64,000 bases of DNA from positions 62,001 to 126,000 of the forward strand of contig JACPXC010000001.1 in assembly GCA_016196755.1 (NCBI GenBank), in the 5' to 3' direction. The position numbers and the translations under genes were made by a program. The DNA comes from Elusimicrobiota bacterium. GTDB lineage: Bacteria > Elusimicrobiota > Elusimicrobia > UBA1565. The notes beneath the pieces were generated by a model that saw only the letters and a program-made list of their open reading frames with translations, was not told where the DNA came from and ran no database searches. Of the stretch, positions 26,349 through 59,871 are shown one piece after another. Each line of letters starts with the position of its first letter. The stretch's first letter is position 1.

Positions 26349-26381
26349 GATGGGCTGGTCCCGAGGTAGGCCTTACCCCAC

Positions 26382-26410: not shown

Positions 26411-26428
26411 GATAGGACGAAAGGGAAT

Positions 26429-40179: not shown

Positions 40180-40252
40180 TAATTCGCCCCCTCTCTTACC
40201 TAATGGTCTCATAGAGGCTCGGCGCGGTCGGGAGTATGATGGACCTGTCATG
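40180..40252 (+). promoter_or_regulatory. Orphan promoter-like sequence upstream of the transposase element
   Basis: The ATGGTCTCATAGAGGCTCGG block with TATGAT (40235-40240) resembles the conserved promoter blocks of the genes at 41305 and 44348. The ATG at 40250 would open a reading frame of only about 11 codons. It may be the decapitated promoter and start of a third gene of that kind, displaced by the transposase element. Confidence 0.35.
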
Positions 40253-40254
40253 CT

Positions 40255-40269
40255 CTTAAGCCTGGCACC
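40255..40269 (+). repeat. CTTAAGYCTGGCACC motif, copy 1 (left side of the transposase)
   Basis: CTTAAGCCTGGCACC lies just upstream of the transposase promoter and recurs as CTTAAGTCTGGCACC at 44231-44245. Sequences of this kind commonly accompany REP-associated tyrosine transposases, so it may be an element end or recognition hairpin arm. Confidence 0.45.
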
Positions 40270-40283
40270 ACTTCTGGTACAAT
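40256..40283 (+). promoter_or_regulatory. Putative promoter of the transposase gene
   Basis: TTAAGC (40256-40261), 16 bp, TACAAT (40278-40283). The ATG at 40294 is 11 bases after the -10, again leaving almost no leader. Confidence 0.4.
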
Positions 40284-40293
40284 GAGGCCTAAC

Positions 40294-41304: not shown

Positions 41305-43122
41305 GTGGGGATGACCTGCGCCGACGCTTTCCGCAAGGCCGTGGCCGGCGGCCTTTCCGCCGCCCTCCTCCTCGCCTCGCCCGGCAGTCAAGCCTTCGCC
41401 GCCAAGATCGCCGCGCCCGTCGTCGCTCCGACGGGCCTGCCGACCCTCCCAGTCGGGGCCGCGGCGGCCCTCCGCATCCCCCGCATGACGTCCGGCCTGC
41501 CGGCCATGACGGCGCCGGCGATGCCGTCGCCCACTCTGACCACGACGCCGGCCGCTCTGGCGCCGACGGCCATGCCGGCCCGGGCCGTGGCTTTGCCGGC
41601 GGCTATACCGACCGCCGCGGCCGTGCTCCAGCCCGACCCGCTGGGTCGCGTGGCGGCCCCCCTGGCGGGCCGCCAGGACGCCCCGGGCCTGGTCGGCGTC
41701 ATCGGACACAACGTCTCCGGCCGGAGCCGGGACTTGGCCCCCGAGGCGGCCTCCTTCGTCGCCCCTTCCGCCGGCGTCATCGCTTCGCCGCAGGCCTCAA
41801 GAGAGTGGGGCGAGGCTTCATTCTCGGCCCTGCGCGGCGACTCGAGCGGCGGCGCCGTGGCGGCGCCGGTCGACCGGGCGGGCTTGTCCCGGCGGACCAT
41901 GCTGGGCCGTCCCGGGCCGGCGGCCAACGGAATCAAAGCCGACGAGTTGCCCGCCCCCGGCGGCTCGACGCTGGTCACGGCGGCCAAGTGGGCTATCCCT
42001 GTCGCCCTAGGGCTGGGCGCGCTCGGAGTCGTCACCGGCTTCATCCCCCTTCCGGCGCTGTCCGCGCTGACGAGCTACATCCCGACCTTCGGCCTCTCGT
42101 GGCCGGCCCTGATCGGCATCAACGTCGGCGTCATGCTCGCCGTCCAGATCGGAAAGAAGCTTTGGGCCAACCATACCGAGAAGAGCGAGAAGGCGGCCGA
42201 GAAGGCGGCCAAACTAGAGGCCGCCAAGGACCTCGCTCCCGCCACCCTGGAAGGGGAGGCGGCCGCGCAGGCGCTGACGGCGCGCCTGGGCACCAACGAG
42301 GGCGTCTCGATCTACGACTACAGCACGGGGCAGAACCATGTCATCCCCGTGGAGCAGGCCCTCATCGACCATGTGAAGGCCGGCGAGTTCAAGGTCGTCA
42401 GCGACAACACCGGCGCGATGTTCGTCGTGCCGGTGCTCGTAAAGCCCGACGACCTCGTCGTCAACGGCGTCTCGGACTCTGCCGAGGCGACGCCGGAACC
42501 TGCCGCCTTGAAGACCGCCGACCCGACGCCGACCCCCGCGGCTTCGACCGACGCGGACGCCCTGGCGCGCCAGGCCGAGGCCGCCGCCGCGTCGAAGGCT
42601 CTCGAGGACGCCGTCGAAGCCATCGTCCCCGCCGAGGCCGCCTCTGCGCCCAAGACGCGCCGCGGCGCCAACCCCACCGGCCTGGCCGGCAAGAAGCCGC
42701 GCAGCTTCTCCCAACTCCCGGCCGACGCCCGCAAGATGGACGCAGAGGCCCTGTCGGCCGGCAAGGCCAAGGCCCAGGCCCGCGCGCGCAAGAAGGCCCC
42801 GGACGCCCGCCTCGTGCGCGTGACGATCAACTTGGACGACCCGCGCGCCCACCCGGTCTACGTCTTCCACTCCCGCAAGACCGGCCAGATCCTCACGGTC
42901 TGGGAGAAGCGCATCGGCGTCAAGAAGGGCACGATCAAGGGCGACACGCTCTGGGACAGCGGACTCCAGGATATCGCCGCCTTCTCGGAGGCCTACACGG
43001 CCCTCAAGGCCGGCGCCCATTGGTTCGCTCCCGTCCGCGTCGAGTTGGCCGCGCGCCGCGGCACCTCGCCCGTTTGGGTCTTCACCGACGCGCGCGGGCG
43101 GACGCGGCGCGTTCCCGCCTAG
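41305..43122 (+). CDS. Secreted/membrane protein sharing its promoter and N-terminal leader with the giant gene
   Basis: A 605-residue unrecognised protein. The GTG start and signal peptide (ADAFRKAVAGGLSAALLLASPGSQAFAA) align with those of the giant protein at 44348. So do downstream stretches (RVAAPLAGRQ, APGLVGVIGH, EAASFVAPSA, SALRGDSS), which gives a shared leader domain of about 170 residues. After it come one or two hydrophobic segments (about 228-280), a charged helical stretch (EKSEKAAEKAAKLEAAK), a small unknown domain (about 315-390) and a disordered linker. A compact C-terminal domain (about 500-605) contains VRVTINLDDPRAHPVYVFHS. Function is unknown. Confidence 0.75.
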   Translation: MGMTCADAFRKAVAGGLSAALLLASPGSQAFAAKIAAPVVAPTGLPTLPVGAAAALRIPRMTSGLPAMTAPAMPSPTLTTTPAALAPTAMPARAVALPAAIPTAAAVLQPDPLGRVAAPLAGRQDAPGLVGVIGHNVSGRSRDLAPEAASFVAPSAGVIASPQASREWGEASFSALRGDSSGGAVAAPVDRAGLSRRTMLGRPGPAANGIKADELPAPGGSTLVTAAKWAIPVALGLGALGVVTGFIPLPALSALTSYIPTFGLSWPALIGINVGVMLAVQIGKKLWANHTEKSEKAAEKAAKLEAAKDLAPATLEGEAAAQALTARLGTNEGVSIYDYSTGQNHVIPVEQALIDHVKAGEFKVVSDNTGAMFVVPVLVKPDDLVVNGVSDSAEATPEPAALKTADPTPTPAASTDADALARQAEAAAASKALEDAVEAIVPAEAASAPKTRRGANPTGLAGKKPRSFSQLPADARKMDAEALSAGKAKAQARARKKAPDARLVRVTINLDDPRAHPVYVFHSRKTGQILTVWEKRIGVKKGTIKGDTLWDSGLQDIAAFSEAYTALKAGAHWFAPVRVELAARRGTSPVWVFTDARGRTRRVPA

Positions 43123-43125: not shown

Positions 43126-44151
43126 TTAGCGTCGCTCGTCCTTCCGCGGCCCGAATGTCTTTCGCGCCGCATCCTGATTGTGGGCGCGGCATAGGACACG
43201 GACGTTAGCCGGGTCGTCCGAACTTCCTCCCAATGCCCATGGCTTGATGTGGTCGTACTCGAGCCATTCCGTTGCGCCGCAGCGCCTTCCGTCTTCGGCG
43301 ACGTAGGCGCAGCGGCCTTCGTCGCGCCGCATGACCGCCTCGCGCACGCGCTTGGGGATCCGGCGGGAACGGCCGTTCGGCTTCCGATTCGACGCGCGGC
43401 CGGGTTTCCCGCGCCCCCTTTGTCTCCACGGGTCCTTGGCGTCCAGCAGCATCTTTATGGCCTCTCCGATGACGTGCTCTAAGCGGCCGTCAGGGTGCTT
43501 GTGGCGGAGCAGGCCCTTGGCCCTCTCGATATCCGCGAAGAGTCCCTCCGTCGCGGTGAAAGAAATCCGAACGAGGCGGTCTTTTGTCGAGTCCTCCTGC
43601 GGCGAGACAAAGGCCGTCAATTCCAGGGGCGGGGTTTGGCACAAGACCTCTGCGACGGGGAACGTGAGTGTATTCTCATCCTGCGGTGTCGGGGCCTGCG
43701 CCGGTGCCGGCAGCGCTCTGATCACATCGGCTTTCGGCCCGCCATGCTCGAAAGTCAACGCTAGGCGTTCGATTTCTCGACGAGTCTTACCGCGAGCGGC
43801 GGAGAGCGATTGCTCCGCGTTCTCCGGCGTCAGGTATGGTGCCAGGCGCGCCAATCCGCTCAGATGCAGCTCGCCTTTGGCGAGCATCTCGAGCGCGTCG
43901 GGGTGATGTCGCGCGGCACGGGCGGAGCGTATGCGCAGGAAAGCCTCGGACTCCGAAAGCCCAAGCCGTTCCGTGCAGTAGGCGAAGGTCGACGGGTAGC
44001 CTTTGTCCTCAGGGGCGCGTCGACGGTCGAATTCCTGCAAATGGGCCAGAAGGATCACGATCACCTGCCGTTCTCCGCGCGCTAGTCGCTGCAGACGGCA
44101 ATCCAGTTCGTGGTTTGTAAGAGTTACCGCAACGGCTGTTGTCGAGGTCAT
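43126..44151 (-). CDS. HNH endonuclease-domain protein (DUF222/13E12-like)
   Basis: A 341-residue protein; the ATG at 44151 is preferred to the track start at 44244 because the extra 31 residues look non-coding. The N-terminal helical region (HELDCRLQRLARGERQVIVILLAHLQEFD) resembles that of DUF222/13E12-type HNH proteins. The C-terminus has the full HNH signature: EGRCAYV, a paired Cys in CGATEWLEYDHIKPWALGG, and NVRVLCRAHN. A metal-dependent nuclease activity is expected. Such genes often travel with mobile DNA. Here it sits between two genes with duplicated promoters and beside a CTTAAGTCTGGCACC motif, so it may be a later insertion. Confidence 0.85.
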   Translation of the reverse strand: MTSTTAVAVTLTNHELDCRLQRLARGERQVIVILLAHLQEFDRRRAPEDKGYPSTFAYCTERLGLSESEAFLRIRSARAARHHPDALEMLAKGELHLSGLARLAPYLTPENAEQSLSAARGKTRREIERLALTFEHGGPKADVIRALPAPAQAPTPQDENTLTFPVAEVLCQTPPLELTAFVSPQEDSTKDRLVRISFTATEGLFADIERAKGLLRHKHPDGRLEHVIGEAIKMLLDAKDPWRQRGRGKPGRASNRKPNGRSRRIPKRVREAVMRRDEGRCAYVAEDGRRCGATEWLEYDHIKPWALGGSSDDPANVRVLCRAHNQDAARKTFGPRKDERR

Positions 44152-44230
44152 ATTACTAGTACGCGAAACGTCGGAATTAGTTCCCTGCCGTCCTCGCGGC
44201 GGCGCGAATTGAGGTGGGTCCAGACACACC

Positions 44231-44245
44231 CTTAAGTCTGGCACC
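44231..44245 (+). repeat. CTTAAGYCTGGCACC motif, copy 2
   Basis: CTTAAGTCTGGCACC in the 196-bp gap before the giant gene, matching 40255-40269 at 14 of 15 bases. It is flanked by an 8-bp direct repeat TGGGTCCA (44215-44222 and 44252-44259), which might be a target-site duplication or chance. Confidence 0.45.
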
Positions 44246-44347: not shown

Positions 44348-47300
44348 GTGCGGACGAGCTTCGCCGACGCTCTGCGCAAGGCCCTGGCCGTCGGGCTGTG
44401 CGCGGCGCTCCTCATAGGCACGCCTGGCGTTCAGGCCTTCGCGGCCGAGGTCATCGTGCCGCGCGTGGCGCCTGCCGCCCTTCCCGGCGCCCCTCTCGGT
44501 TCGGTCGCCGCCGGCGTCCTGCGCGCGCCGTCGCTGTCGCACTCGTCGATCCCTACCTTCTCGGGCCCGTCGCTCGCCTCGCCGCAGGCCGTGGCCGGCC
44601 CCACGATCCGATCCGCCGGCTCGCCCGCCGTCCAACCCGCGGCCGCGGCCCGCGCCCAACTCCCCAAGTCCGTCAGCCGCGTGAAGGCGCCGCTGGCGGC
44701 GCGCGCCGAAGCCGCCGGCTTGGTCGGCGTCATCGGCCATGACGCGGCGGGGGGGAACCCGGAGAACGCTCCGGAGGCGGCGGCCTTCATCGCCGCGCCG
44801 GCCGCGGCCTCGAAAGGCTGGGCCGCGGCGGCGTTCTCGTTCTTGCGCGGCGAGTCGCGCGCAGCCTCCCAGGGAGCGGTCGACGGAGCCGAGACCTTCC
44901 GTCGCCCGCTGCTCTCGAACGCTCCCGCCAAGACCAACGGTATGCGCTTCCGCGCGGTGCCGGCCGCGGCCAACGGGGTCTCCGACCCCACAAGTTCCGC
45001 GGCCGGCGGCGCCGCGAAGGCCGAGGCTCCGCGCTCCCACCTCAGCGAGGACTTCCTCGGGTTCCGCAGCGTGCACGGCGTCCGCCGCGAAGCCCTCGGG
45101 GCGCTGCCCGCCAGCGCCACGGTCCCCCAGGTCATCGACCGCATCGCGCGCCAGTTCGGCATGCCGCGCGAGACGGTCGTGGCGCTAGGCCGCCGCTTCG
45201 CGCTCTACGAGAACTCCGAGCGCGCGGGCTGGCTGGCGGTCTACGACCGCCTGCAGGCCGGCAACCGAGCCGAGTACGAGCATCTCGACCACAAGAAGTA
45301 CCAGGGCTGGTCTTCTTTCCTCGCGGTGCACAAGCACGTCATCGGTTTGACCGTGCGCCTGCCCTACCACCTCTTCGACTCGTTCCTGTTCGGCTTCTTC
45401 CGGCGCGCGGCCACCTATGAGTTCCGCCGCGGCGGCGAAGACTTCTTCGCCGTGCGCCAGGCCCTCGATATCGAGAAGGCCCGCGCGGCCGGGACCCTGA
45501 CCCGGGAGATGCTGGCCCGTCCTCCGCTGGCCGAGAAGTGGCTCGAGTCGGCCCTGCAGGCCCAGTTCCTCGGCGGCCTCACCGCACGCCATCGCTTCCT
45601 GGCCAAGCCCTGGGCCCGGAGCCTGCGCCGCTGGGTGGTCGTCCCTTTCGCCGCGCCGCTCTATAAGTTCGTCCTCCGCCGCGCTACGCTCGCCATCCTG
45701 AGCGCCTTGGCGATGGGATTTGTCACCGGCGCGGTGCCGATGCCCATACTGGCCTTCCACCTGACCGGCGTGCCGGTGCTGGGGCCGGCCCTGGCTTGGC
45801 TGGCCCACGGCCTGCCGGCCGCCGCGGCCGGGCTGCCCCTGGTGGGCGGCGGGCTCTCCGCGATGTTGGGTCACGCCTTCGGGGTCCTAGTCGACGAACT
45901 CACGGTGGGCGGATTGCTCAACGCCTTCACGCTCTCGACCATGCTCACCTACCCGAGAGCGGTCCGCGCCCGGCTCATGGAAGACCGCGGCCAGGGCCGC
46001 CTGCACACGCCGCGCCTGCGCGAGCGCGCCTTCTGGTACGGCCTGGTGGGGACCCTCTTGAGCGCCCGCTTTTGGAAGGACAACCTCAAGTCGCTCTTCG
46101 GGCTGCTGACCGTCGGCGCCGAGATCGAGGGGATCATGAGCTACGCCGGCGGCCTCGACGCCGCCGTCACCCCGGCGTTCAAGGGCGCCACGGGGCACGA
46201 GTTCAAGCTCTTCTCCACCGTCGCCGCCGCCGTCGAGCGCCCCGAGGGGCAGAGCCCCATCCCGTTCGGCGGCGCGATCACCTGGGGCAACGTCCTCATC
46301 TACAAGCTCCAGAACGCGATGGGCCTGAACATCACCGACACGGCGTATCACTACACCCACGGCCTCTTTTACGGAAACTACGATGACGCGGTCTCGCAGG
46401 CCGTCATCGCCCCGCCGCACGCCGGAGGCGGGGCCCCGGGAGGCGCCTCCGTCGTCGCCTCCATCCTGGGCGCCCGCGCCGCGGTCGCCGCCCTCGAGGA
46501 CCGAATCGATGGCCGCGAAAGCCGCCTCGCCGAGCTCGAGAAGCAGTCGAACCCCATCAGCGAGACGGACCAGCGCGCCTATGAGGATACCCTGCGTCTG
46601 TTGGCCGAGAAGACCGATCGCGCGGCCGTCGAATCGAAGCTGGCCGAGATCACGGACTTGAAGAACCCCAAGGACGGCTCCGCGGCCCTAGGGAAGCTCG
46701 AGGACCTGGCCGACTACTACCGCGGCCTCCTGCCCGCCGAGCGCCAAGCCACGGGCTACCTCGAGTCGGTGGGAGTACGCCTGGCCCTGGTCAAGACCGC
46801 GCGTCAGGCGCTCGCCGACTTCCAGGAGGGCCGCGGGGATGGCTCGCCGGCGCGGCGGCGCTCGCCGGTCGACGCCGAGGCCGGGCGGCGCATCGAGCCT
46901 TTGGTGGCCGAGCTCGAGAAGCTGCGCGGAGAGGCGCGCGCCGAGCTGACCAACCGCGACTCGCTCGAGCGCCTGCTCGCCTCGGCCGCCCGGGCCCGCG
47001 AGCTGGCCCTCAATGAGCGCCGCGGCGGCAAGGAGATGCTCGAGTTCCACAAGAACATGGCGCGTCTGGCCACGGTCATGGACCTGGCGTTCTCGCTCAA
47101 CACCATCGAGGCCGCCCAGCGCGCCATCCTCGACATGCAGCGTCAACTCGACGCCAAGCTCGAGAAGATCCGCCTCACCGCCGAGCAGTCCGAGCGCGAC
47201 CGTGCCGAGGCCGAGCTCCAGAAAGCCAGGCTCGAGGAATGGCGCCGCGAAGTCGCCGCCGACGTCGCCGACAGCCAAAATTCCCTGACCGACATGACCG

Positions 47301-50300
47301 AGCTCGAGGAGCATACCCGCACGGCGGTCGAAGGGATATCGTCGTTCCGCTCCGAGCTCCGGACCCTGCTGGCCCGCATCGACGCCGAGGACCGGGGCTC
47401 GAGCGCGGGCGCCTTGGCCGAGTACGGCCGCCGCAAGGCTCTCCTGCCGACCTTGGTCTCTTGGAACACCGACGGTAAGCCCGGCGACCCCGACTTCACC
47501 TCGCTCAAGAGCCTGCGCGAGAGGCTGGCCGACGTCGATGCCTACGCCGGCAAGGTCTCCGACGGCCTGGGTCGCATCGGCGGGGCCCCGGTGGAGTTCG
47601 CCGGCGTGCTCGTCGTGGCCGTCCCGGGCGTCCCGGACGTCAGCGTCTCCAATCCCTCCGCCGCTCAGACCCTGCAGATCCTGGCCGCCCGCAGAGCCCA
47701 GTGGGAGGCCGAGCTGGCCTCCTACAAGTCCACGCGCGACAAGTTCCGCGACCGTCTGGACCCGGACTACGCCGGCAGCGAGGCCGACGATTTCGGCGAC
47801 TCCCACCCGGTCTCCCTGCCCCGCCGCCTGAGCGCCGCGCGAAGCGACGCCGCGGCGCGCGTCTCCGAGGCGCGCGAGCTGGGCGCCCGCGTCGACGCGG
47901 CCGCCGCCGAGATCCGCGCCGTTCTGCCGGGCGTCGACCTGCCTTCCCTCTCGGGCTTGGGGCTCGAGGCCTTCCGCACCGCCATCGAGGGCTACCCCGA
48001 CAAGCTCAAGGCCGTGGAGATCCCGGGCCAGGAGACCGCCCAGAACCAGAAGGCGCGGGTCGCCCTGCTCAAGGTGGGCCGCCTCATCCCAGCGGCCGGG
48101 CATGTCGCCGTCGAGTGGTCGGAGGCCGACGCCACCGTCGCCGGCATCCAGGACGCCCTGTCCTCGCCGCTGCCGCAGGCCGCCGCGCTCTACGACGGGG
48201 TGGTGGGCGTGGTCTCGGCCGTGCTGGCCGACGTCGCCGCCGACGAGGCCTACGTGCGGGCCGGCTTCCCGCAGGGCCAGAACCAGGGGCTCATCGACCG
48301 CAAGCGCGCGCTCCTGCAGTCGATCTCACCGGTGCTTGCCGAGGCCCGGACCATGCTGAGCGCCCACGCCATCCCGTTCCAGCAGGGCACGGTTCGCTCT
48401 TACGACCCGAGCGGCGACAAGTACGCCAAGCTCTTCGACGGCCAGATCCGGCTCTTCGAGGGCACGCGCGACGCGCTCGAGAAGACCCTGCCCTGGGCGC
48501 TGGCCGCCAACGGGGCCAAGGAGGGCGACACGGCCGGCGGCCTGCAGAACATCGAGGCGCGGCGCCAGCGCTTCCGCGAGCTGTCGACCGGCTACGACGA
48601 CGAGCGCGGCCATCACAAGGGCGTGGAGGAGCACCTGGCGAACATCGCCAAGCTCAAGGACCCCGACAACACGGAGACCGAGGAGGTCTACGGCCAGACC
48701 CTGCCCAAGAGCCTGCCTCGCCTCATCACGCAGTTCACGGCCGAGAAGGCGACCCGCGCCGGTGAGCTCAACGAGCGCAACACCGACATCAACGGCATCC
48801 TCGAGCGCATCGACGCCATGACCGGCGGGCGCCACGACCTGGCCGCGCGCCGCCTGCCCACCGGCCTCGGCGTCGACCCCGGCAGCGTCGACCGCGTTCA
48901 GGCCTTAGTCGACGGGCGCGCCCTGCAGACCCTGGGCGACCTGCTCGCGGAGATCGGCGCCGAGTACAAGGCCAAGTCCGGCGACGTCAGCCTCGAGGGC
49001 GGCGGCGACGGCCTGGTGCCTTCCGGTACCCAGCCCACGCCGAAGGTCGACGACAATACCCAGCTCGCCCTGCTGGCGCTCGAAGCCGCCAAGCGTCTGG
49101 TGCCGTCCTCGGCCGGAGACCTCCAGAGCGCCCCGGCGGCCTACGCGGTGGCGCGCTTCCTCTATTCGGACGCCGTGGTGGCGGCGGCCAAGGAGAACCT
49201 CTACGACCGCATTCCCGTGGCCGAGGCCTTCCTCACCCAGGCCAAGGCCGCGTTGGCCGACGCCACCCGGGACCTCGACTACGACGTGGCCTACGTGCGC
49301 GCCGGGGGGACGGGGGAGAGCGGGGACTCGGTCATCGACCGCAAGGTGCGGGTCTACTCGGCGCTCAACGCGGTGACCCGCGCGGGGATGTCGTTTTACG
49401 GCATGAAGGTCGGCTGGGACCAGGCCTCCTTCGACACCGTGGCGCGGATGGGGACCTACTACGACTCGACCCGCGACATCTACGCGAACTCCGGCACGGT
49501 CACCCAGAACGAGGTCGACGCCATCCGAAAGATGAAGGAGACCCTGCAGAAGACCTTCGACGACCTCCAGGAGCAGCGCACGAAGCTCAACCGCTGGATG
49601 GGGCAGCTCAACGATCCGGAAGAAAGCGCGCTGAAGCGGATTGGGGAGGACTTGCGCCGGGTGCAGGAGAAGACCCGCGCCGTGCTCGAGCAGAACTTCC
49701 AGTTCCGCGACGTGGAAGAGCGCTTCAAGCGCTCCGAGGAGGTCCTCGACTGGACCCTCAAGAGCATCGAAGACCGCCAGGCCCGGCTCTCGGCCGAGCT
49801 CAAGGAGCTGCGCGACCCCGCTTCTCTCGACCCCCAGCTGCGCCACCGCATCGAGCAGCTGCGCTTTACGGGCTCGAGCTGGTACATGGGAGCCGACACC
49901 GGCGACGCCACCGCGGCCCTGGTCGTCCCCAAGAAGGACTTCGGGCGCTTCATCGACGCCGTATTCTCGTCGCTGCTCACGCGCGCCTCCTCGGGGCGGG
50001 ACCTCTCGGCCGTCAAGCGCCAGCTGCTCGAGAACCCCTCTTCTCTCTCCGACATCATGCCGGGCTCAAAGGTCATCGGCTTCGGGGAGGCCGACGGCTT
50101 CTACATGGTCTACCAGACCGAGTTCTCGGTGCCGCATGGCCTCGAGTCCTCGAACTGGGTGACGCTCGGCAACGTCGCCAAGCTCTGGGGCAACAACGTC
50201 TCGGTGACCGGCTACCAGTTCGCCAGCCCGCCCAATGACGAGAACGCCCCGTGGGGCGACAAGGGCGTCGACGTCCAGATCGAGTCGATCCAGGGCAAGA

Positions 50301-53300
50301 ACTGGGTCAACTACTTGAACGTCGACTTCCATCGCTTCATCCAAGACATCCCGCCCGACACCAAGATGGCCTCCACGGCGCGCCAGAGCCGGCTGATGGT
50401 CTTCGAGGACTTCGCGGTCCTGCTCTTCGGCGACAAGCTCTACGTGGCCTTCACGGGTTTCGCCGACGGCGCCGTGTCCCAGACCAAGGACAAGCCCTAC
50501 TTCTACGGCGGCAGCCTCAAGAGCTCGCTGAAGTTCTCCGAGGTCATGCGCCTCAACGCCGAGCAGCAGCAGGTCTTCGCCAAGGACCCGCGCTATTTCC
50601 TGCAGACGATTGATTTGGACTTCACCGGCCTCGACCCGGAGATGCCGCGCGCCGTCATCCGCTCCGACGGCGAGGACAAATACTACAAGCGCACCCAGGT
50701 CGGTCCCAGCTTCGACATCGGCCGCCTCATGGACTCCCAGGACGCCTTCACCGTGGACCTCTACTGGGCGCGCCAGGAGGGCACCGACGACTACAACCAG
50801 GACGCCCTGGGGGTCTCGGTGCTCAAGGGCTTCACCCTGCGCGCCGCCGACGGCAAGCCCTGGATGGTCCTGTCCAACCGCGCCGGGGCGGAGATGGGCG
50901 AGCGCCAGAACGCCTACTCCGACAAGGTCACCGTGGCCCTGCCCGACTACGGCGTGGCGGTCAGCGCCGAGGGGCGGCTCATCGGCGACGCGCGGACCTA
51001 CTACCTGCAGGCCGGCAAGAAGCTCGGGGAGACCTCCGAGGTGGCGCTGGGCTACGGCACGCGCTATCCCGGCATGCCCGAGCGCCTGACCCTCCAGCTC
51101 AACACCTCCTTCACGCTGGGCCAGCTCTGGCGCTCGGTGGCCCAGGGCGCGGCCGAGGAGCTCCAGGGCGGGGGGGCGCTCACGGATTTCGACGCCGCGC
51201 TTGACGCTTACAAGGTAAAGGAACTGAGGGAAGTCTTCCAGCGCGACGTGGCCTCGCGCCTGGCGCGCGGCGACATCGGGCGCCTGGCCAAGGAGCTCCA
51301 GGAGCTGCGCCGCGCCGGGGCGCTCATGGACAACACGCGCGTGCGCGGCATGGTGGGGTTCACCTCGAACCCCATCGGCGAGTCGATCTCGGACCGCGCG
51401 GTGGGCGGGGGATTCACCGCCGGCACGCAGACCACTCTGACCCTCAACAAGACCCAGAAAGCCTTGGTCGAGCAGAAGGTCCACGCCGTCTATCGCGAGG
51501 GCATGCGCCTGCAGTACCGGATGATGGAGCTCACCAAGCAGTGGCAGGCCTCGCTCATCGAGGCCGCCGAGGCTCAGTGGGAGCTCAAGATGGCCCGGGT
51601 CATGGCCGAGGGCGGACCGGGCGAGCTCAACCGCCGCGAGGGCGCGGCGCGCGCGGCGGCCGCCGAACTGCGCCTGCGGCAAGCCTCGGCGCGCTACAAC
51701 GCCATGGCCGGCCGGCCCGAGAGCGATGCCCTGCCCTTCAAAGACCTTTCGGCCGCCGAGCTCGAGGCCGTGCTGGCCGAGATCAGGTCGATCATGGCCG
51801 GTGCCGACCCGCTCGTCGAGATCCTCAAGGGGCTCGACCCCGAGGCGATCAAGGAGTCGCTGGGCGGGGAGCCCTTCAATCTGGTCGATTGGCTGCCCTG
51901 GGTCGACCAGCTCACCGTCTCGGTGGGCGTCCAGTTTCAGGACCTCCTGGCCAACCAGCTCCTCGGCGTGGGCGGCAGCGTGCGCCTGCCGATCTACGAC
52001 CCGGCCTCCAAGGAGCGCGACAAGGCCTACCGCCTCGAGGCCGAGGCCGCGATGTCCGAGATGCTCGAGGTCTGGGCCGACTACGGTACGCGCGCCGAGC
52101 GCGAGCGCCTGGCGGCCGCGGGCTGGGAGGACGGGGCGGCCCTCATGCGTTCGCGCGCCGCGGCCAGCACCGACGCGCTCGACGCCGCGGTCAAGGGCCA
52201 CCGCAACGGCCTGGTCCCCGAGAGCCGCCTGCGCGAGGCCTACGACCAGTGGCGTTATTATCAGGGCGGGGCGCTGTCGGCCTCCGCTCAGGCCGCGCTC
52301 CTGCAGGGCTGGGCGGGCCTCGACCAAGCCTTCGCCCGCCCCCGGCCCGATCAGCGCGCCCCGGGGCGCATCGCCTCCTTCCAGGACGCCTTCGACGCCG
52401 CGGCCTCGGCTTCGCGAGGCCTCGACGAGATCGAGGCGCGCCGCCAGGCCGCCGCCCACATGACCGAGGCCAACGCCAGCCGCATCCAGAAGGTCTACGC
52501 CGACCTGTTCGTGGGCTGGAACATCACCGCCACCGGGGTGGGCTGGCTGCCGTCTTTCGGCGCCACCGGCGTAGGCGTCACGCCGATCCTCACCTTCGAG
52601 CTCAAGACCGCCGAACTGCGCGACCTGCAGGTCCGCCAGGGCGAAGGCCAGCAGGCCTATTTCCAGGCCGCTCAGGCCAAGCTCGAGGCCGATCTCGCCG
52701 TGGAGTTCTACCGGCAGGGTCTGGCCTGGCACCAGGCCGGCCGCATGGCGGAGCTGCTCGAGCGGGAAGTCCTGCCCGAGATGAGGGCCGCCGGGAAGCC
52801 TCAGATGGAGCTCGACCTGGCCGCGCGCCGTTTGCGCTTGGCCCAGCAGGAGCGCGAGCAGGCCCGGGCGGCCCTGAACCATCTGCTCGGCCGCGCCCCC
52901 GATGCGCCGCTCGACCTGGGCCTCGACCCTGAGCGGGCGCTGGCCGACCTCAAGTCCATCCTGGCCGCCAAGCGCCCCGTGGAGGCCGACCAAGCCGTGC
53001 TCGCCGCGCGGGTGTCGGTGGCGCGGGCCGTCGAGGTCATGGCCGACAAGAACCTCAAGATCGACGAGCTGCGCCTGGAGCCGGTCTCCCTCGTAGTGCG
53101 CTCCTTGGGGCGCCTGGTGCGGGCCCTCTCCGAGGACGGGATCGGGAATCCCGACGTGGCGGCGGCGGCGCGCGTGCAGACCCTGGAGGCCGAACGGGCC
53201 GCCCTCGCCTACGCGCAAGAGCTTCCGATCCGCCGCGGCCAGCTCCAGGCCGAGCTGAGCGCGGCGCGGACCGCCCTGCGCGACGCGCCTGGAAAGGTCG

Positions 53301-56300
53301 CGGCGCTCGACCTCGAGGGCCGCATCATGGTGCTCGAGGGGGCCTTGGCCCGCGTCGCGGCGGACGCCGCCCCGCCGCGCCAAGGGGCCGTCCCGGGCTC
53401 CTTCGCCGAGCTGACCGACCGCGCCGCGGCCGCCCAGCAGGAGCTGGCCTCGGCCGGACGCTCGCCCGAGGTCGACGCATTCGAGCCTGAGGTCCAGACC
53501 CAGCGCTCGCTCATGGGATTGCGCTACTACAGCGCCAAGCAGACGATGGGGGGTGACCCCATCGATAAGAACTATTTGGAGAGCTGGGTCGAGTTCCGCC
53601 TACGCGCCCAGGGGACGCCCGAGGAGGTCCTCTTGGCGTTGGCGAAACTGCGCGTCGACAAGGCCTCGCGCATGCGCGCCAACGACGCCGCGGCCGCGCG
53701 GGCCAAGGGCCAGGTCCTGGTCAGCGAGTTCGAGGCCACGGTGCGCTTCAAGCGCTGGCTCGACGCCCAGACCGTGGTCCCGCGGACCGCGGTGGACGGC
53801 CGGCTGGCGGAGCAGGGCGCGCGTCTCAAGGCCCTGCTCGCCCTGCCCGAAGCCCTGCCGGTCGCCGAGCTGGCGGCGCTGGTGCCGGCGGGTCCCGACG
53901 GCCGGACCGCCGACGTGACGGCGCTCTCGGCGCGCCTGCTCTCCGAGGTGCGCGCCCTCGACATGGGCCGCCTGCGCGAGACGGTGTTCGACGGCGGGGT
54001 TCCGGAGTCGTTCGGGAACGAAGACTCGCTCATCAATCAGATCCGCGCCGACGTCATCGCCGAGCGCATGAGCTACAAGGGCTTCACCCCGGTGGCCGCC
54101 TTCGGCCTGTTCCGCGGCAAGGCCGTCGGCGGGCTCTTCATGGAGGCTCCCGACCCGCGCTCGATCTCGGCCGGCCTCCAGCGCGTGCTCTCGGACTCGG
54201 TGCGCCGCGAGCTCGAGTCCCAGGGCCGCATGCGCGAGCTCTCTCTGCGCCTCCACCTCCTCATGATCGGCGTGGAGGGCCGCGCCAAGCTGGCCGAGCG
54301 GCAGGCCGCCGCGGCCGCCGCGGCCCAGGAAGCCTACCGCGCGGCGGCCTCGCGCGTCGACGCCGGGCTAGCCGGCCCCGAGGAGCTGCTGTCGGCCCAG
54401 GACGCCCTGGTGCGCTCCTGGCTCGCGCTCAGCGCGACCCTGGCCGAGCTCAAGAGCGGCTTCATCACCTTGGTCTCCGAGCTAGACGCCCTGGGCTACG
54501 ACTCCAAGAAGCTCCTGGCCGCTCCCGCCATGCCGGGGCTCCCGCCCGCCGGCGAGGCCGGTCTGTCCCCGGCGGCCCAGCTGGCCGACTTCGCCTCGCG
54601 CCGCTCGCTCGACGCGGGCTTCGCGGGAGAGCTCGAGGCCGCGCTGGCCGGCCTGCCGGGCGCCGGCGCCGAGGCGGCCAAGGCCTACGCCGGGGCGGCG
54701 GCCTCGTACCGCGCCCTTTCGAAGGACGCCGAGGACGTCCGCCATCACCCCGGTCTCTCGCCCGAGCAGAGACTGCGCGCCTTGACCGCGGCCGACGTGG
54801 AAGGACGCCGCCTGGCCGTCGCCGGGGTCCTGGCCCGCGTGCTCGACGGCACGCGCGAGGCGCCCCAGGCCCGCGAGGCCATCCTCGCCGTGCTCTCCCG
54901 GGACTTGACCGCCCAGGAGAGCGCCGCTTCGGGGCTCGACTCCCGGGAGCGGGCCTTGGCCGGGGACCTCCGCAAGGTCATGCTCGACGGCCTCGAGATG
55001 CCGGCCGTGGTGCGCGGCCAGGTCGAGCGGCTCGAGACCCTGCGCGCCGCGCTCCTCGGGGCCCGCCAGGCCCTGCGCGAGGAAAGCCTCAAGACGCGCC
55101 TCTCGCCCACCGAGTTCCTGATGAGCGACCAGGCGCTGGACCGCTATCTGCGCGCGCTGACCGAGTACGACGCCGCGGTGCTGGCCCTCTACGCCGCCCC
55201 CGAGGTCAAGGGCTCGGCCGACCTGGCCTACACCCTCGACGGCCTGCACCCGTTGAAGGTCTCGCTGGCCCGCGCCACGGACCTGGCGCGGCAGGGGCGA
55301 GGGATGCTGGCGCTCTCCGCCCTGGTCGCGCTGGCCGAGGACCGCCTGGCCGCCCTGCGCTGGGAGCGGGGGCTTCCATCCGAGACCGACGCGGCGCTGG
55401 CCGCGCTCCGTCGTCTCACCGACTTGCGCGCTTCCTGGCGCGCCAAGGACCCCAAAGGGTTGTCCCCGCTCGTGGCGCTGACCAAGCCCGACGCCCAAGG
55501 CCGCCGCGGCTGGAACGCGGCGGACTGGCTCAGCGAGGAGCGCTTCCAAGAGCTGTATAAGGGCCGAATCACGGTGGACGCCGACGGGCGGCGCTGGGTA
55601 GCGGGACCCGCCGGAGAGCGCTACGAGGCGGTCTCGGGCCTCGACGTCGCCGAGGCGCGCTTTTCGGCGGCGCGCGGCGCCTCGGACGCCAACGAGGCCC
55701 GCCGCCGGCTCTACGCCATCCTCAAGGACAGCGAGTTCGCGCTGATCGGCCTCGACGGCGCGGCCGCGCGCGGGATCAGCTACGCCGACCTGACCGAGAA
55801 GGCCCGGGCCGGCCAGCTCTTCGTCTTCGCCGCCGCCCCGGACCGCCGCGGCTTGCGGCCCGCCGCGCATCCGCTCAAGACCCTGTGGGACGGGCCGGGC
55901 TCGGTCGAGACCATCGTCTACGTCGGCGCCCAGCGCCTGGCCCGCGACCGCTTCCCGACCTACGAGAGCCTGCGCGAGCACGTCGACGCCCTGCGCGCCG
56001 CGGGCTCGCCCGCGGCCGAAGACTTCCTGCGCCTCGAAGCGGGGCCCGCCGGCTTGGCGCGCATGCTCGAAGCCGCCAAGGAGCTGCGCACCCGCTCCCA
56101 GCGCGCCGGCTGGATCGGGGTGAAGCTCCAGAGCTACGGCGTGGCCGTCGATGAGGCCGGGCGGCCGCGCGAGCTCTACCTCGTCCAGGACGACTTCGAC
56201 GCCGCGCGCGCGGCCCACGAGGCCGCGCCGCGGACTTGGGCCGAGGCCCTCCAGCGCTTGGCCGAGGCCAAGGCCGCCGAGGTCAAGGCGCGCGCCGCGC

Positions 56301-58117
56301 GCGACGAAAAGAAGTCGGCCGCCGTCGACCTGGCCCTCCGCGACGCCGAGCGGCGCTCCGGGCAGGCCGTGTCGGCCTTGGTGGCCGCCTCGCGGCTCAT
56401 GGCCCATGCCGGGCAATGGGAGGGCTCGCGCGAGCGGACGCTTGCCGGCCTGCGCGACGCCGGCCTTACGGACGAGGAGGCCGCTCGGCGCGACGAGGCG
56501 CTGGGCGCCGAGGGGACGCGGCGCCTGCTCGTCTCGCGCGACCTCGTCCTCCACGTCGACTCCCAGAACAACCTGGTCCGCGTCTCCGGGACGCAGGTCT
56601 TCGGCGTCGGGCCCCTGGACGCCGCGGTGGGCGTCGCCGACGGGGCCGTGCGCCGCGTCCCCGGCGAGCTCTTCGCCGCCGAGCTCGATGTCGACGGGCG
56701 GCTCGTGAAGCTCTACATGGACCCCGACGAGGTGGCCAAAGCGGGAAAGGGCTGGGTCCTGGTCGGCATCGACGGCCGGGAGGCATCCGTAGCCGCCAAG
56801 GCCGTCGACCCCGCCATGCGCGTCCTGCACTACGCCGACCCGGCCACCATGCTCAAGGACGCGGACGGCGCGCCGCGGCCGGGCACCGCCCTGCCGGTCC
56901 TGCTCAACCGCCGCTACATGATCGAGCTCCTGACCGACTCGGGGCGGGCCAAGTCCGAGGCGGACTCCTGGGCCTACGGCCCTTGGAACTGGGGGAACAT
57001 CCTCTGGGAGATCCCTAAAGGGGTGCTCGGCACGCCGGTCGAGCTCCTGACCGGCCGCGACGCCAACCAGAACGGCTACCTGGGACGCGTCAACATGTAC
57101 AAGACCGAGGGCGGCGCCACCGAGCATCAAGGCGTCTTCCGCAAGGCCTTGGGCCTGCTCGACGTCTTGGACCTCATGCCCGACCACGTGGACTGGTATT
57201 TCGACCCCAGCATGTTCCCCAAGACCGTGACCTTGGACTCGGAGCTCCTGCCCGGCGAGAACGTCGGCCGCAAGGACATGCGCGCCGGCGACAAGGACGT
57301 CCACCTCGGGCGGGGCGCCTACGAGCGCACGATCCAGACCCAGGTCGAGGATCTGGTCAACGCCAGGCGGCGCGTGCTCTCGCACTTCTCCGGCGGCGTG
57401 CAGGAGTCCTGGCTCGAGGATAGGCGCGGCCGGGCCGGCTCCTTCACCTCCTCGCGCGTCCTCACCGAGACCGGGACCGAGGCCGTCGACCGCGCCCTCG
57501 ACGACCCGGCCATCGGGTACGACGACCGCTCGACGCGGCCCGGCGAGGGCCCGGTGACGCTCTCGGGCCGCCCCGGGCACGTCGAGGTCGACCGCGTCGA
57601 GCGCCGTGTCGAGGTCACCCCCGGCGGCGACAACTACGGCCGGGTGGCCGACCGCTTGGCCGGCCTGCCCGAGCTGGTCTCGGGCCGCGCCCGCGCCGCC
57701 GAGGAGCGCGCCGCGGCGCTGGCCGCCGAGCGCGCCGACGCCGAGGGCGTCGCCGAGACTTACCGCACCAGCCTCGGCGCCGCGCGCGCCGAGGAAGCCG
57801 AGGCCCGGACCCGCGCCCAGGCCCAGGCCTGGCGCATCGGCGCCCAGCGTGCCTTGGAAGGCCAGATCAACCGCCTGCGCGCCGAACTCTCCGAGCACCG
57901 AAGCGAGCTCGCCGCCGCGCGCCGGCGCCTGGCCGAGCTCGAGGACGCCATCCGCCGCCTGCCGCGCGCCCCGGCGAATCCCTCGGATCCCTCCGAGCCC
58001 CAGCCTTCGCCCCGCTTCCCCTGGCTGCCCTGGGTCGCCGGCGTCCTGGCCCTGGCCGCCGCTCTCGCCGTCATCACCGCCCTCCTCCTCCGCCGCCGGC
58101 GAGTGGCAATAACTTAA
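44348..58117 (+). CDS. Giant envelope protein with TolC/OEP-like repeats
   Basis: A 4,589-residue protein, by far the largest gene here. A GTG start and signal peptide (ADALRKALAVGLCAALLIGTPGVQAFAA) precede the leader domain shared with the gene at 41305. A cluster of hydrophobic helices lies at about 447-520, then long coiled coil (about 710-1850) and a beta-rich region (about 1850-2360). A stretch of OEP-like repeats follows: strand segments VGGSVRLPIYDPASKERDKA (about 2540), VGVTPILTFELK (about 2740) and AAFGLFRGKAVGG (about 3250), helices ending LNHLLGRAPDAPLDL (about 2842), and AGPEELLSAQDALVRSWLAL (about 3340). A C-terminal coiled coil, one membrane helix (about 4561-4583) and an RRRR tail end the protein. 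No stop or frameshift interrupts it. Function is unknown. Confidence 0.85.
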   Translation: MRTSFADALRKALAVGLCAALLIGTPGVQAFAAEVIVPRVAPAALPGAPLGSVAAGVLRAPSLSHSSIPTFSGPSLASPQAVAGPTIRSAGSPAVQPAAAARAQLPKSVSRVKAPLAARAEAAGLVGVIGHDAAGGNPENAPEAAAFIAAPAAASKGWAAAAFSFLRGESRAASQGAVDGAETFRRPLLSNAPAKTNGMRFRAVPAAANGVSDPTSSAAGGAAKAEAPRSHLSEDFLGFRSVHGVRREALGALPASATVPQVIDRIARQFGMPRETVVALGRRFALYENSERAGWLAVYDRLQAGNRAEYEHLDHKKYQGWSSFLAVHKHVIGLTVRLPYHLFDSFLFGFFRRAATYEFRRGGEDFFAVRQALDIEKARAAGTLTREMLARPPLAEKWLESALQAQFLGGLTARHRFLAKPWARSLRRWVVVPFAAPLYKFVLRRATLAILSALAMGFVTGAVPMPILAFHLTGVPVLGPALAWLAHGLPAAAAGLPLVGGGLSAMLGHAFGVLVDELTVGGLLNAFTLSTMLTYPRAVRARLMEDRGQGRLHTPRLRERAFWYGLVGTLLSARFWKDNLKSLFGLLTVGAEIEGIMSYAGGLDAAVTPAFKGATGHEFKLFSTVAAAVERPEGQSPIPFGGAITWGNVLIYKLQNAMGLNITDTAYHYTHGLFYGNYDDAVSQAVIAPPHAGGGAPGGASVVASILGARAAVAALEDRIDGRESRLAELEKQSNPISETDQRAYEDTLRLLAEKTDRAAVESKLAEITDLKNPKDGSAALGKLEDLADYYRGLLPAERQATGYLESVGVRLALVKTARQALADFQEGRGDGSPARRRSPVDAEAGRRIEPLVAELEKLRGEARAELTNRDSLERLLASAARARELALNERRGGKEMLEFHKNMARLATVMDLAFSLNTIEAAQRAILDMQRQLDAKLEKIRLTAEQSERDRAEAELQKARLEEWRREVAADVADSQNSLTDMTELEEHTRTAVEGISSFRSELRTLLARIDAEDRGSSAGALAEYGRRKALLPTLVSWNTDGKPGDPDFTSLKSLRERLADVDAYAGKVSDGLGRIGGAPVEFAGVLVVAVPGVPDVSVSNPSAAQTLQILAARRAQWEAELASYKSTRDKFRDRLDPDYAGSEADDFGDSHPVSLPRRLSAARSDAAARVSEARELGARVDAAAAEIRAVLPGVDLPSLSGLGLEAFRTAIEGYPDKLKAVEIPGQETAQNQKARVALLKVGRLIPAAGHVAVEWSEADATVAGIQDALSSPLPQAAALYDGVVGVVSAVLADVAADEAYVRAGFPQGQNQGLIDRKRALLQSISPVLAEARTMLSAHAIPFQQGTVRSYDPSGDKYAKLFDGQIRLFEGTRDALEKTLPWALAANGAKEGDTAGGLQNIEARRQRFRELSTGYDDERGHHKGVEEHLANIAKLKDPDNTETEEVYGQTLPKSLPRLITQFTAEKATRAGELNERNTDINGILERIDAMTGGRHDLAARRLPTGLGVDPGSVDRVQALVDGRALQTLGDLLAEIGAEYKAKSGDVSLEGGGDGLVPSGTQPTPKVDDNTQLALLALEAAKRLVPSSAGDLQSAPAAYAVARFLYSDAVVAAAKENLYDRIPVAEAFLTQAKAALADATRDLDYDVAYVRAGGTGESGDSVIDRKVRVYSALNAVTRAGMSFYGMKVGWDQASFDTVARMGTYYDSTRDIYANSGTVTQNEVDAIRKMKETLQKTFDDLQEQRTKLNRWMGQLNDPEESALKRIGEDLRRVQEKTRAVLEQNFQFRDVEERFKRSEEVLDWTLKSIEDRQARLSAELKELRDPASLDPQLRHRIEQLRFTGSSWYMGADTGDATAALVVPKKDFGRFIDAVFSSLLTRASSGRDLSAVKRQLLENPSSLSDIMPGSKVIGFGEADGFYMVYQTEFSVPHGLESSNWVTLGNVAKLWGNNVSVTGYQFASPPNDENAPWGDKGVDVQIESIQGKNWVNYLNVDFHRFIQDIPPDTKMASTARQSRLMVFEDFAVLLFGDKLYVAFTGFADGAVSQTKDKPYFYGGSLKSSLKFSEVMRLNAEQQQVFAKDPRYFLQTIDLDFTGLDPEMPRAVIRSDGEDKYYKRTQVGPSFDIGRLMDSQDAFTVDLYWARQEGTDDYNQDALGVSVLKGFTLRAADGKPWMVLSNRAGAEMGERQNAYSDKVTVALPDYGVAVSAEGRLIGDARTYYLQAGKKLGETSEVALGYGTRYPGMPERLTLQLNTSFTLGQLWRSVAQGAAEELQGGGALTDFDAALDAYKVKELREVFQRDVASRLARGDIGRLAKELQELRRAGALMDNTRVRGMVGFTSNPIGESISDRAVGGGFTAGTQTTLTLNKTQKALVEQKVHAVYREGMRLQYRMMELTKQWQASLIEAAEAQWELKMARVMAEGGPGELNRREGAARAAAAELRLRQASARYNAMAGRPESDALPFKDLSAAELEAVLAEIRSIMAGADPLVEILKGLDPEAIKESLGGEPFNLVDWLPWVDQLTVSVGVQFQDLLANQLLGVGGSVRLPIYDPASKERDKAYRLEAEAAMSEMLEVWADYGTRAERERLAAAGWEDGAALMRSRAAASTDALDAAVKGHRNGLVPESRLREAYDQWRYYQGGALSASAQAALLQGWAGLDQAFARPRPDQRAPGRIASFQDAFDAAASASRGLDEIEARRQAAAHMTEANASRIQKVYADLFVGWNITATGVGWLPSFGATGVGVTPILTFELKTAELRDLQVRQGEGQQAYFQAAQAKLEADLAVEFYRQGLAWHQAGRMAELLEREVLPEMRAAGKPQMELDLAARRLRLAQQEREQARAALNHLLGRAPDAPLDLGLDPERALADLKSILAAKRPVEADQAVLAARVSVARAVEVMADKNLKIDELRLEPVSLVVRSLGRLVRALSEDGIGNPDVAAAARVQTLEAERAALAYAQELPIRRGQLQAELSAARTALRDAPGKVAALDLEGRIMVLEGALARVAADAAPPRQGAVPGSFAELTDRAAAAQQELASAGRSPEVDAFEPEVQTQRSLMGLRYYSAKQTMGGDPIDKNYLESWVEFRLRAQGTPEEVLLALAKLRVDKASRMRANDAAAARAKGQVLVSEFEATVRFKRWLDAQTVVPRTAVDGRLAEQGARLKALLALPEALPVAELAALVPAGPDGRTADVTALSARLLSEVRALDMGRLRETVFDGGVPESFGNEDSLINQIRADVIAERMSYKGFTPVAAFGLFRGKAVGGLFMEAPDPRSISAGLQRVLSDSVRRELESQGRMRELSLRLHLLMIGVEGRAKLAERQAAAAAAAQEAYRAAASRVDAGLAGPEELLSAQDALVRSWLALSATLAELKSGFITLVSELDALGYDSKKLLAAPAMPGLPPAGEAGLSPAAQLADFASRRSLDAGFAGELEAALAGLPGAGAEAAKAYAGAAASYRALSKDAEDVRHHPGLSPEQRLRALTAADVEGRRLAVAGVLARVLDGTREAPQAREAILAVLSRDLTAQESAASGLDSRERALAGDLRKVMLDGLEMPAVVRGQVERLETLRAALLGARQALREESLKTRLSPTEFLMSDQALDRYLRALTEYDAAVLALYAAPEVKGSADLAYTLDGLHPLKVSLARATDLARQGRGMLALSALVALAEDRLAALRWERGLPSETDAALAALRRLTDLRASWRAKDPKGLSPLVALTKPDAQGRRGWNAADWLSEERFQELYKGRITVDADGRRWVAGPAGERYEAVSGLDVAEARFSAARGASDANEARRRLYAILKDSEFALIGLDGAAARGISYADLTEKARAGQLFVFAAAPDRRGLRPAAHPLKTLWDGPGSVETIVYVGAQRLARDRFPTYESLREHVDALRAAGSPAAEDFLRLEAGPAGLARMLEAAKELRTRSQRAGWIGVKLQSYGVAVDEAGRPRELYLVQDDFDAARAAHEAAPRTWAEALQRLAEAKAAEVKARAARDEKKSAAVDLALRDAERRSGQAVSALVAASRLMAHAGQWEGSRERTLAGLRDAGLTDEEAARRDEALGAEGTRRLLVSRDLVLHVDSQNNLVRVSGTQVFGVGPLDAAVGVADGAVRRVPGELFAAELDVDGRLVKLYMDPDEVAKAGKGWVLVGIDGREASVAAKAVDPAMRVLHYADPATMLKDADGAPRPGTALPVLLNRRYMIELLTDSGRAKSEADSWAYGPWNWGNILWEIPKGVLGTPVELLTGRDANQNGYLGRVNMYKTEGGATEHQGVFRKALGLLDVLDLMPDHVDWYFDPSMFPKTVTLDSELLPGENVGRKDMRAGDKDVHLGRGAYERTIQTQVEDLVNARRRVLSHFSGGVQESWLEDRRGRAGSFTSSRVLTETGTEAVDRALDDPAIGYDDRSTRPGEGPVTLSGRPGHVEVDRVERRVEVTPGGDNYGRVADRLAGLPELVSGRARAAEERAAALAAERADAEGVAETYRTSLGAARAEEAEARTRAQAQAWRIGAQRALEGQINRLRAELSEHRSELAAARRRLAELEDAIRRLPRAPANPSDPSEPQPSPRFPWLPWVAGVLALAAALAVITALLLRRRRVAIT

Positions 58118-58140: not shown

Positions 58141-59871
58141 ATGGGGGGGACCGCTTCCTTATTATTGGCGCTGGCGGCGCTGGGCGCCTTTGGGTACGAC
58201 CAGGGGCAGGAGGCGTTCGAGGATAGGCTCCTGCACGCGCCCTGGGAAGACCGGCTCCGCGTCGTTCGCACCGTGGCGGGACGGGGCCCCGACGGCTTGG
58301 AACTCCTCAAGCTGGCCGCCCAGGACTCCGACTGGCAGGTCCGCGCGGCGGCCGCCGAAGGATTGGGGCGGGCCGGGCCGAAGGCCGAGAAGACACTGGC
58401 GCGCCTGGCCGACGAAGACCGCTGCCGCCTCGTCCGACTGGCGGCCGCCCACGCGCTGGGACGCCTGGGGGCTGCGCCGCCGGCCGACCGAGGGATATCC
58501 AGAGCAGGTTCCGCCCACACTTTAGGGGAGGGCGCCGTCGATGACACCTCCGAGTGCGCCTCCTCTTATCTCCCCGCCTCCGACGCAGGGTCCGGCCGAG
58601 CGGTCAAGTCGCGCGACTCGACCCGGCCCGATGAGGCGGGCTGCTCCTATCTGCGTTTTCAGCGCCTGGGCAACAACATGTGTCCGGGCCAGATGACCGT
58701 CCACGGGATCGGCCGGCCGCCCGACTCGCCCAAGCTGCTCAAGATGCGCGGGGACGAAGGGGGGGTAGCGCTCTGTTGTCCGTCCGACGAGTCCGCGGCG
58801 CCGGAGCCCGTCGAGGTCGAGTGCCGCTTGATCCCCGAGGAGTGCCCGCCGCCGTGGCAGCAGATGGACGAGCCGGGCGATGCCATCAACGGGAAGGAGG
58901 GGCGCTACCGGCGCTCACAGCGGCACCATCTGGGCGACCTTGACTGGGTGCAATGCTGCCGGCCGGTCCCGGTCGAAGTCGAGGAAGAGGCGACGGCTCA
59001 GGCCGAGGCGCCGTCGCCGGTGCAGCGCCCGCGTCGGCGGCCGCAAGCGCCGGCCGCGCCGCTGCCCCCCGAGGAGCCGCTTCCTCCGCGCACCGAGGGT
59101 CCGAGCCCGGAGAGCCTCATCGCCAAGCGCGCCCTCGAGAAGCGGGCGCCCGAGACCCTGCCTCTTCCGGTCGGCCCGGCGGGCCGCGAGGACGCTCCGG
59201 TCGACGGCACGGCTTCGCTCGAGCGCGGCGGACGCCCAGGGCCGACGGCCGAGCTCGACATGCCGGCCGCCTTGGGCGGACCGGAGGTCCTGCCGCCGCC
59301 GCGCGGGGCGGGAAACCGCGAGGACGCGGACGTGGAGGCGGCGGCGCGCCTCGAGAAGGGCGGGCGGGCGGGCCCCAAGCCCGACGTGGACGCCGGCGCT
59401 TGGCTGGGCAAGCGCGACGGCGCCCTCCCGGGCCCCAAGGGGCCCGACGGGCGGGCGGACGCCCAGGTCACCAGCGCGGCCGACATCATGCCCGATGGCG
59501 GCCTCAAGCGGGAGGCCTACGACCCGCTGCCGGTACTCATCGAGAAGCTGGCGGCGCCGGAGGCGGCGATCCGGGCCCGGGCCGCCGAGATGATCGGCTC
59601 ACGAGGGGCCGCGGGGCGGCCGGCGGTCAAGGCTCTGCTGGCCGCGCTCAAGGACGAGAACGCCAGGGTGCGCTCCGACGCCGCGCTGGCTCTGGGCGGC
59701 GCCAGCGCCGGCACCGACGACGCCGTCCCCGCCCTCAGGCGCCTTTTGAGGGACCGGCATCCCGACGTGCGCTACAGCGCGGCCACCGCGCTGGGACGGG
59801 TGGGGACGCCGGCGGCCGAGCGGGCGTTCTCGCGCTACATGAGCCGCGAGTCTAAAGTCCTTCGACGTTGA
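58141..59871 (+). CDS. Exported HEAT-repeat protein with a Cys-rich middle
   Basis: A 576-residue protein. A short hydrophobic N-terminus (TASLLLALAALGAFGY) may be a signal peptide or anchor. HEAT/PBS-lyase-like repeats lie at the N-terminus (VRAAAAEGLGRAGPKA, VRLAAAHALGRLG) and at the C-terminus (IRARAAEMIGSRG, VRSDAALALGGA, VRYSAATALGRVG). Between them is a Cys-rich section (CSYLRF, NNMCPGQMTV, VALCCPS, WVQCCRPV), apparently a repeated CC-containing unit, and a Pro/Glu-rich linker with repeated GGRAGP/GGRPGP segments. HEAT repeats usually form protein-protein platforms. The 3' end overlaps the convergent family-F gene by 20 bp. Confidence 0.78.
   Translation: MGGTASLLLALAALGAFGYDQGQEAFEDRLLHAPWEDRLRVVRTVAGRGPDGLELLKLAAQDSDWQVRAAAAEGLGRAGPKAEKTLARLADEDRCRLVRLAAAHALGRLGAAPPADRGISRAGSAHTLGEGAVDDTSECASSYLPASDAGSGRAVKSRDSTRPDEAGCSYLRFQRLGNNMCPGQMTVHGIGRPPDSPKLLKMRGDEGGVALCCPSDESAAPEPVEVECRLIPEECPPPWQQMDEPGDAINGKEGRYRRSQRHHLGDLDWVQCCRPVPVEVEEEATAQAEAPSPVQRPRRRPQAPAAPLPPEEPLPPRTEGPSPESLIAKRALEKRAPETLPLPVGPAGREDAPVDGTASLERGGRPGPTAELDMPAALGGPEVLPPPRGAGNREDADVEAAARLEKGGRAGPKPDVDAGAWLGKRDGALPGPKGPDGRADAQVTSAADIMPDGGLKREAYDPLPVLIEKLAAPEAAIRARAAEMIGSRGAAGRPAVKALLAALKDENARVRSDAALALGGASAGTDDAVPALRRLLRDRHPDVRYSAATALGRVGTPAAERAFSRYMSRESKVLRR

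Follow-up and report, generated by a model that had tools for sequence, protein, structure and literature searches.

The window analysed here, a 64,000-nucleotide stretch of the genome of an Elusimicrobiota bacterium (67 contigs, 4.59 Mb), contains a giant ORF that starts with GTG, has no internal stop across 4,589 codons and has a GC3 of 94%. It lies downstream of a smaller ORF and of a gene on the opposite strand.

41305..43122, + strand: separate 605-aa ORF, N-terminal part of the locus
43126..44244, − strand: HNH-domain gene between the 605-aa ORF and the giant ORF
44348..58117, + strand: giant ORF, 4,589 aa (ORF and translation, homologues, codon constraint)

Two same-genus relatives have a longer form of the giant protein (5,217 aa in one of them), which starts with the sequence of the window's 605-aa ORF. 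The HNH gene has nine matches in the window's genome and a lower GC3, and the 605-aa ORF and the giant ORF each possess a leader; this is most simply read as a split of the locus by a mobile gene, the main ORF having a leader of its own. An IS200-like gene (Y1_Tnp + DnaA-C) is located at 40240-41190. Of seven loci of relatives compared, five (L009, L010, L013, L063 and L072) have such a gene directly 5' of the giant or of the part split from it. Also in the window, at 26315-34042, is a second large ORF of about 2,551-2,576 aa without a confident Pfam match; two relatives have it close to the giant, with conservation of 64% and 40%. Directly 3' of the giant (58141-59868) is a gene for a HEAT-repeat protein, same-genus copies of which are 62-65% identical, one sharing a contig with the giant.

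Comparison with a same-genus relative (71% amino acid identity, 4,326 aligned codons) gave divergences of 0.21, 0.17 and 0.37 at codon positions 1, 2 and 3, as expected of an ORF under purifying selection and not in decay. The giant ORF is real and intact, and purifying selection acts on it, which bears out the view of the initial annotation that a frame intact over 13.8 kb argues against decay. When 97 related genomes were searched with a 1,567-aa core of the giant in place of the whole protein, relatives were detected in 53, chiefly of the same order, often as two paralogues per genome that belong to two paralogue groups. Full-length homologues are present in named Elusimicrobia MAGs, and homologous ORFs measure ~3,300-5,650 aa wherever contigs permit. 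The conserved piece spanning residues 1690-2280 matched 52 of the 341 genomes of the phylum, all within one class bar one weak match. Within one order of uncultured Elusimicrobiota, most members carry the gene. Among the genomes of that order searched, just one is a single contig; its two copies of the giant (G044:C1:2186228-2190903 and 2550709-2556067) are collinear but spread over several frames, the frame changes being sequencing indels or real breaks. No description of giant proteins from Elusimicrobia was found in the literature searched, with most subscription journals outside reach.

The regions flanking the central part of the protein were as follows.

44348..44446, + strand: predicted signal peptide, residues 1-33, MRTSFADALRKALAVGLCAALLIGTPGVQAFAA (sequence, conserved N-termini)
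45668..45955, + strand: hydrophobic, probable inner-membrane region of several segments, residues 441-536 (hydropathy)
46445..49837, + strand: long helical coiled-coil-like region, residues 700-1830 (weak coiled-coil family matches)
54530..57967, + strand: C-terminal region, residues 3395-4540, with coiled coil near the end
58034..58090, + strand: C-terminal TM helix, residues 4563-4581 (Pro-rich before, RRRR after)

The leader, membrane helices, long coiled coil and C-terminal anchor named in the initial annotation were thus recovered, at residues 1-33, 441-536, 701-1834 and 4563-4581, respectively. The leader motif is common to homologues, and the alignment-averaged hydropathy peaks at 441-536 recur in eight of them, while region 701-1834 gave only weak matches, to the coiled-coil families SpiroCoCo, EzrA, SMC and Rad50. 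The C-terminal TM helix and its basic residues are found in group-1 members and are missing in some other homologues, so a two-ended inner-membrane anchor is not general. The further suggestion of an envelope-spanning chain agrees with the C-terminal TM helix and with the conservation of the hydrophobic segments near the N-terminus; as a reading of topology from sequence, it is plausible.

Between these flanks lies a core, residues 2274-3394, that was divided into six units. Their boundaries were set from an AlphaFold2 (AF2) model before the half-repeat types (A or B) were compared, and the types were not used in setting them.

51167..51745, + strand: U1, OEP-like half-repeat, A-type, residues 2274-2466 (AF2, hhalign)
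51746..52363, + strand: U2, OEP half-repeat, B-type, residues 2467-2672 (hhalign, AF2)
52364..52921, + strand: U3, OEP half-repeat, A-type, residues 2673-2858 (hhalign, BLASTP)
52922..53395, + strand: U4, putative OEP half-repeat, expected B-type, residues 2859-3016 (AF2 topology only)
53396..53911, + strand: U5, putative OEP half-repeat, expected A-type, residues 3017-3188 (AF2, LLGLPP-type end)
53912..54529, + strand: U6, OEP half-repeat, B-type, residues 3189-3394 (hhalign, Pfam OEP, AF2)

Pfam gave no match to the whole 4,589-aa protein, because divergence and length mask the OEP signal. The best Pfam OEP match was to piece 3161-3420 (E=0.0023, 18.2 bits), below the gathering score of 22 bits for PF02321, which no match reached; none was obtained on homologue members for U1, U4 and U5, or on the coiled-coil piece 701-1834. 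By contrast with the reversed alignment (best E=0.018) and with column shuffles (at least 0.43), a profile built from 36 OEP half-repeats of related genomes matched an alignment of 48 giant sequences (A1) at three sites, with E-values of 3.5e-6, 1.1e-5 and 0.0015. A whole-OMF profile gave three alignments: its first half with U3 (E=2e-7), the end of its first half together with its second half with the end of U1 plus U2 (E=9e-8), and one in a shifted register (E=2.6e-7). Ordinary OMFs of relatives, which we take to be CusC-like (two adjoin ORFs read as CusB-like), matched residues 2787-2877 by BLASTP, with a best E of 5e-5. A PDB sequence search with profiles returned coiled-coil noise only.

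Structure prediction of the core was performed with AF2 on A1 (pLDDT 73.9, pTM 0.69), using sequences from one class only and modelling the core separately from the module that precedes it. The OMF motif of strands, a long helix and a shorter helix was predicted six times. In model numbering (+2254 gives protein numbering), strands were placed at 76-85/102-113 in U1, 267-273/285-296 in U2, 459-475/482-499 in U3, 801-811/817-830 in U5 (residues 3055-3084) and 993-1001/1004-1013 in U6, with a single short strand at 651-656 in U4; this gives 11 strands, against the 12 of the TolC trimer barrel. The half-repeat topology (two TM strands, a ~67-aa helix and shorter helices) was thus reproduced, incompletely in U4. 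Helices of 66 and 38 aa in U2 and of 69 and 38 aa in U6 are close in length to those of OprM (67 and 36 aa; PMC8277102), while those of U1, U4 and U5 are shorter. In a Foldseek search, the 39 best PDB matches of the core all belonged to the TolC/OprM family (E from 8.7e-5), with modest TM-scores (target-normalised, at most 0.51).

Taken together, the profile comparisons, the BLASTP matches from ordinary OMFs and the AF2 and Foldseek results bear out the homology of residues 2274-3394 to OEP. The OEP-like motifs reported in the initial annotation are present in the translation, GSVRLPIYD at about 2543-2551, LLGRAPDAPLDL at about 2846-2857 and AGPEELLSAQDAL at about 3342-3354. Its estimate of at least three half-repeats between ~2360 and 3390 held as to homology and was low as to number, since AF2 shows up to six. 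The result that it had named as refuting its view, no OEP match above background and predicted structures lacking TolC-like helical hairpins and strands, did not come about.

When the units were compared by hhalign with A-half and B-half profiles, U2 scored 55.8 for B against 29.0 for A (B-half E=3.4e-8), U3 66.8 for A against 49.4 for B (A-half E=3.8e-10) and U6 34.8 for B against 26.8 for A (B-half E=9.6e-5), compared with shuffled maxima of 13-18. U1 scored 31.8 for A against 21.2 for B, its A-half match (E=2.9e-4) covering 41 columns only. U5, which retains an LLGLPP-type end, leaned weakly to A (16.1 versus a shuffled maximum of 12.6), and U4 had no sequence match to OEP with either profile. 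These scores demonstrate OEP homology for U2, U3 and U6; at the sequence level, these three units have good support, U1 has partial support and U4 and U5 have none. The resulting order, A-B-A-?-(A?)-B, is the register expected for three fused TolC protomers. It is kept in distant class members and is incomplete in the most distant. Comparison of the units with one another linked only U1 and U3 (E=1.5e-5 over 38 columns), on which ground recent tandem duplication was rejected; the low similarity elsewhere implies that the fusion, if a fusion, is old.

The best-conserved part of the giant, residues 1690-2280, includes a module that was absent from the initial annotation.

49421..49804, + strand: predicted alpha-helical hairpin, residues 1692-1819 (AF2, helices 3-65 and 72-130 of the piece)
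50102..51115, + strand: predicted outer-membrane beta-barrel-like module, residues 1919-2256 (AF2, Foldseek, amphipathicity, conservation)

For residues 1690-2280, AF2 predicted the helical hairpin and, after it, 20 strands (pLDDT 76.0 overall, mostly about 75-95 in the strand part); taken over all 20, the strands exceed permuted ones in amphipathicity (p about 0.004). In Foldseek, the 50 best PDB matches of the module were all outer-membrane barrels (best E=1.4e-7), with TM-scores of about 0.3-0.5 and high rmsd; with TM near 0.3 and such rmsd, "barrel-like" is the fair term. No convincing sequence match of 1919-2256 to any family was found. An even strand count would put both ends of the predicted barrel in the periplasm, consistent with the hairpin before it and the OEP core after it. 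The run of about 20 successive predicted strands is shared with barrels such as BcsC, OmpG, the OprD family and TonB-dependent receptors. BcsC, among the best Foldseek matches, likewise has a helical periplasmic part and then a barrel; the giant differs from proteins of this type in having no convincing sequence match to them, a TM-score of about 0.3 and a TolC-like module after the predicted barrel in the same chain. Two 576-aa ORFs weakly match residues 1968-2027. These and the downstream HEAT-repeat ORF were considered as partners, and nothing was found to connect them with the barrel.

With TolC, OprM and CusC (PF02321), the giant shares the half-repeat signature in at least three units, the predicted strand-strand-long helix-helix topology, the helix lengths of U2 and U6 and the Foldseek matches. 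Such proteins have two half-repeats in a protomer of ~450 residues and form homotrimers, whereas the giant has up to six in one chain of 4,589 aa, is below the Pfam cut-off in sequence, and carries an extra predicted barrel, coiled coil and TM anchors, with no adjacent adaptor or transporter seen. We put at a probability of roughly 0.5 the reading that the giant is an exported envelope protein whose core is a single-chain TolC/OMF pseudo-trimer, with a trans-envelope export duct as its likeliest role. Three OMF protomers (six half-repeats, A-B-A-B-A-B) would then be fused in one polypeptide, and the core would close a single outer-membrane barrel of roughly 12 strands without oligomerising, as well as one alpha-helical periplasmic tunnel. 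Two points favour the duct: the characterised proteins with an OEP fold are channels for efflux or secretion, and the order of the repeats is conserved. Against the reading as a whole stand the lack of a convincing OEP match for U4 and U5, the 11 strands in place of 12, the modest TM-scores, the missing C-terminal TM helix of some homologues, the ordinary OMFs also encoded in the genome and the absence of transporter or adaptor genes among the scanned neighbours, linked genes of this kind being common for OMFs but not obligatory.

Other explanations were weighed against these data. That the ORF is an assembly or frame artefact, or a gene in decay, might be suggested by the HNH gene that splits off its N-terminal part in the window's genome and by the several frames of the giant in the sole single-contig relative genome; frames of 3,300-5,650 aa that are intact in dozens of other, independent MAGs disfavour an assembly artefact, and with purifying selection acting on the ORF we regard this explanation as extremely improbable. 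Chance resemblance among Ala-rich amphipathic helices, for which the sub-threshold Pfam scores and the unrecognised U4 and U5 could be cited, is very unlikely given that U2, U3 and U6 score well above the shuffled and reversed controls, that TolC/OprM proteins come first in Foldseek and that piece 701-1834, a coiled-coil stretch of the giant itself, has no OEP match.

A further reading is one in which only U1, U2, U3 and U6 are genuine half-repeats, equivalent to two protomers, with U4-U5 as a helical insert in the second and further chains needed for a channel. The confinement of sequence support to those four units and the want of a clear strand pair in U4 agree with it; the predicted strand pair of U5 at residues 3055-3084, the long-helix/helix pattern of both U4 and U5 and the LLGLPP-type end kept by U5 speak for six units, and we consider the four-unit arrangement unlikely. 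The main rival to the export duct is an envelope tether or spacer, which would transport nothing; the OEP core and the barrel would be its outer-membrane anchors, and the coiled coils would connect it to the wall or the inner membrane. The length of the coiled-coil-like region, the hydrophobic segments at both ends and the lack of nearby transporter genes among the neighbours scanned would suit such a role. A pure tether has no obvious need for homologues to keep all repeats in order and their strands amphipathic; by this argument, which is not a test, it too seems rather improbable.

In the preferred reading the export duct would be covalently assembled: a second predicted outer-membrane barrel stands before the TolC-like core, the protein's own helical domains would replace the usual periplasmic adaptor, and the N-terminal hydrophobic segments and C-terminal TM helix would fix the two ends of the chain in the inner membrane. 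That the giant is a natural, covalently complete trans-envelope conduit, with pseudo-trimeric tunnel, second barrel, own adaptor and inner-membrane anchors at both ends, is a tentative proposal that we hold possible if somewhat doubtful. A trimeric efflux component has been produced as one chain by genetic fusion of AcrB (PMC8277102), like the form proposed for the giant; that trimer is artificial and an inner-membrane transporter, whereas the giant is natural and would be an outer-membrane factor. According to PMC8277102, OMFs are homotrimers whose protomers hold two repeats each. In the literature searched, which lacked most subscription journals, no natural single-chain OMF or TolC was found, a result that is not proof of absence. 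If the pseudo-trimer is correct, a natural single-chain OMF with diverged units would be evidence that the tunnel can give up its threefold symmetry and that its units can become specialised one from another, in parallel with the earlier duplication within the OMF protomer. It would offer a covalent system in which single channel units can be changed one by one, and would point to a way of bridging the envelope in a diderm phylum about which little is known.
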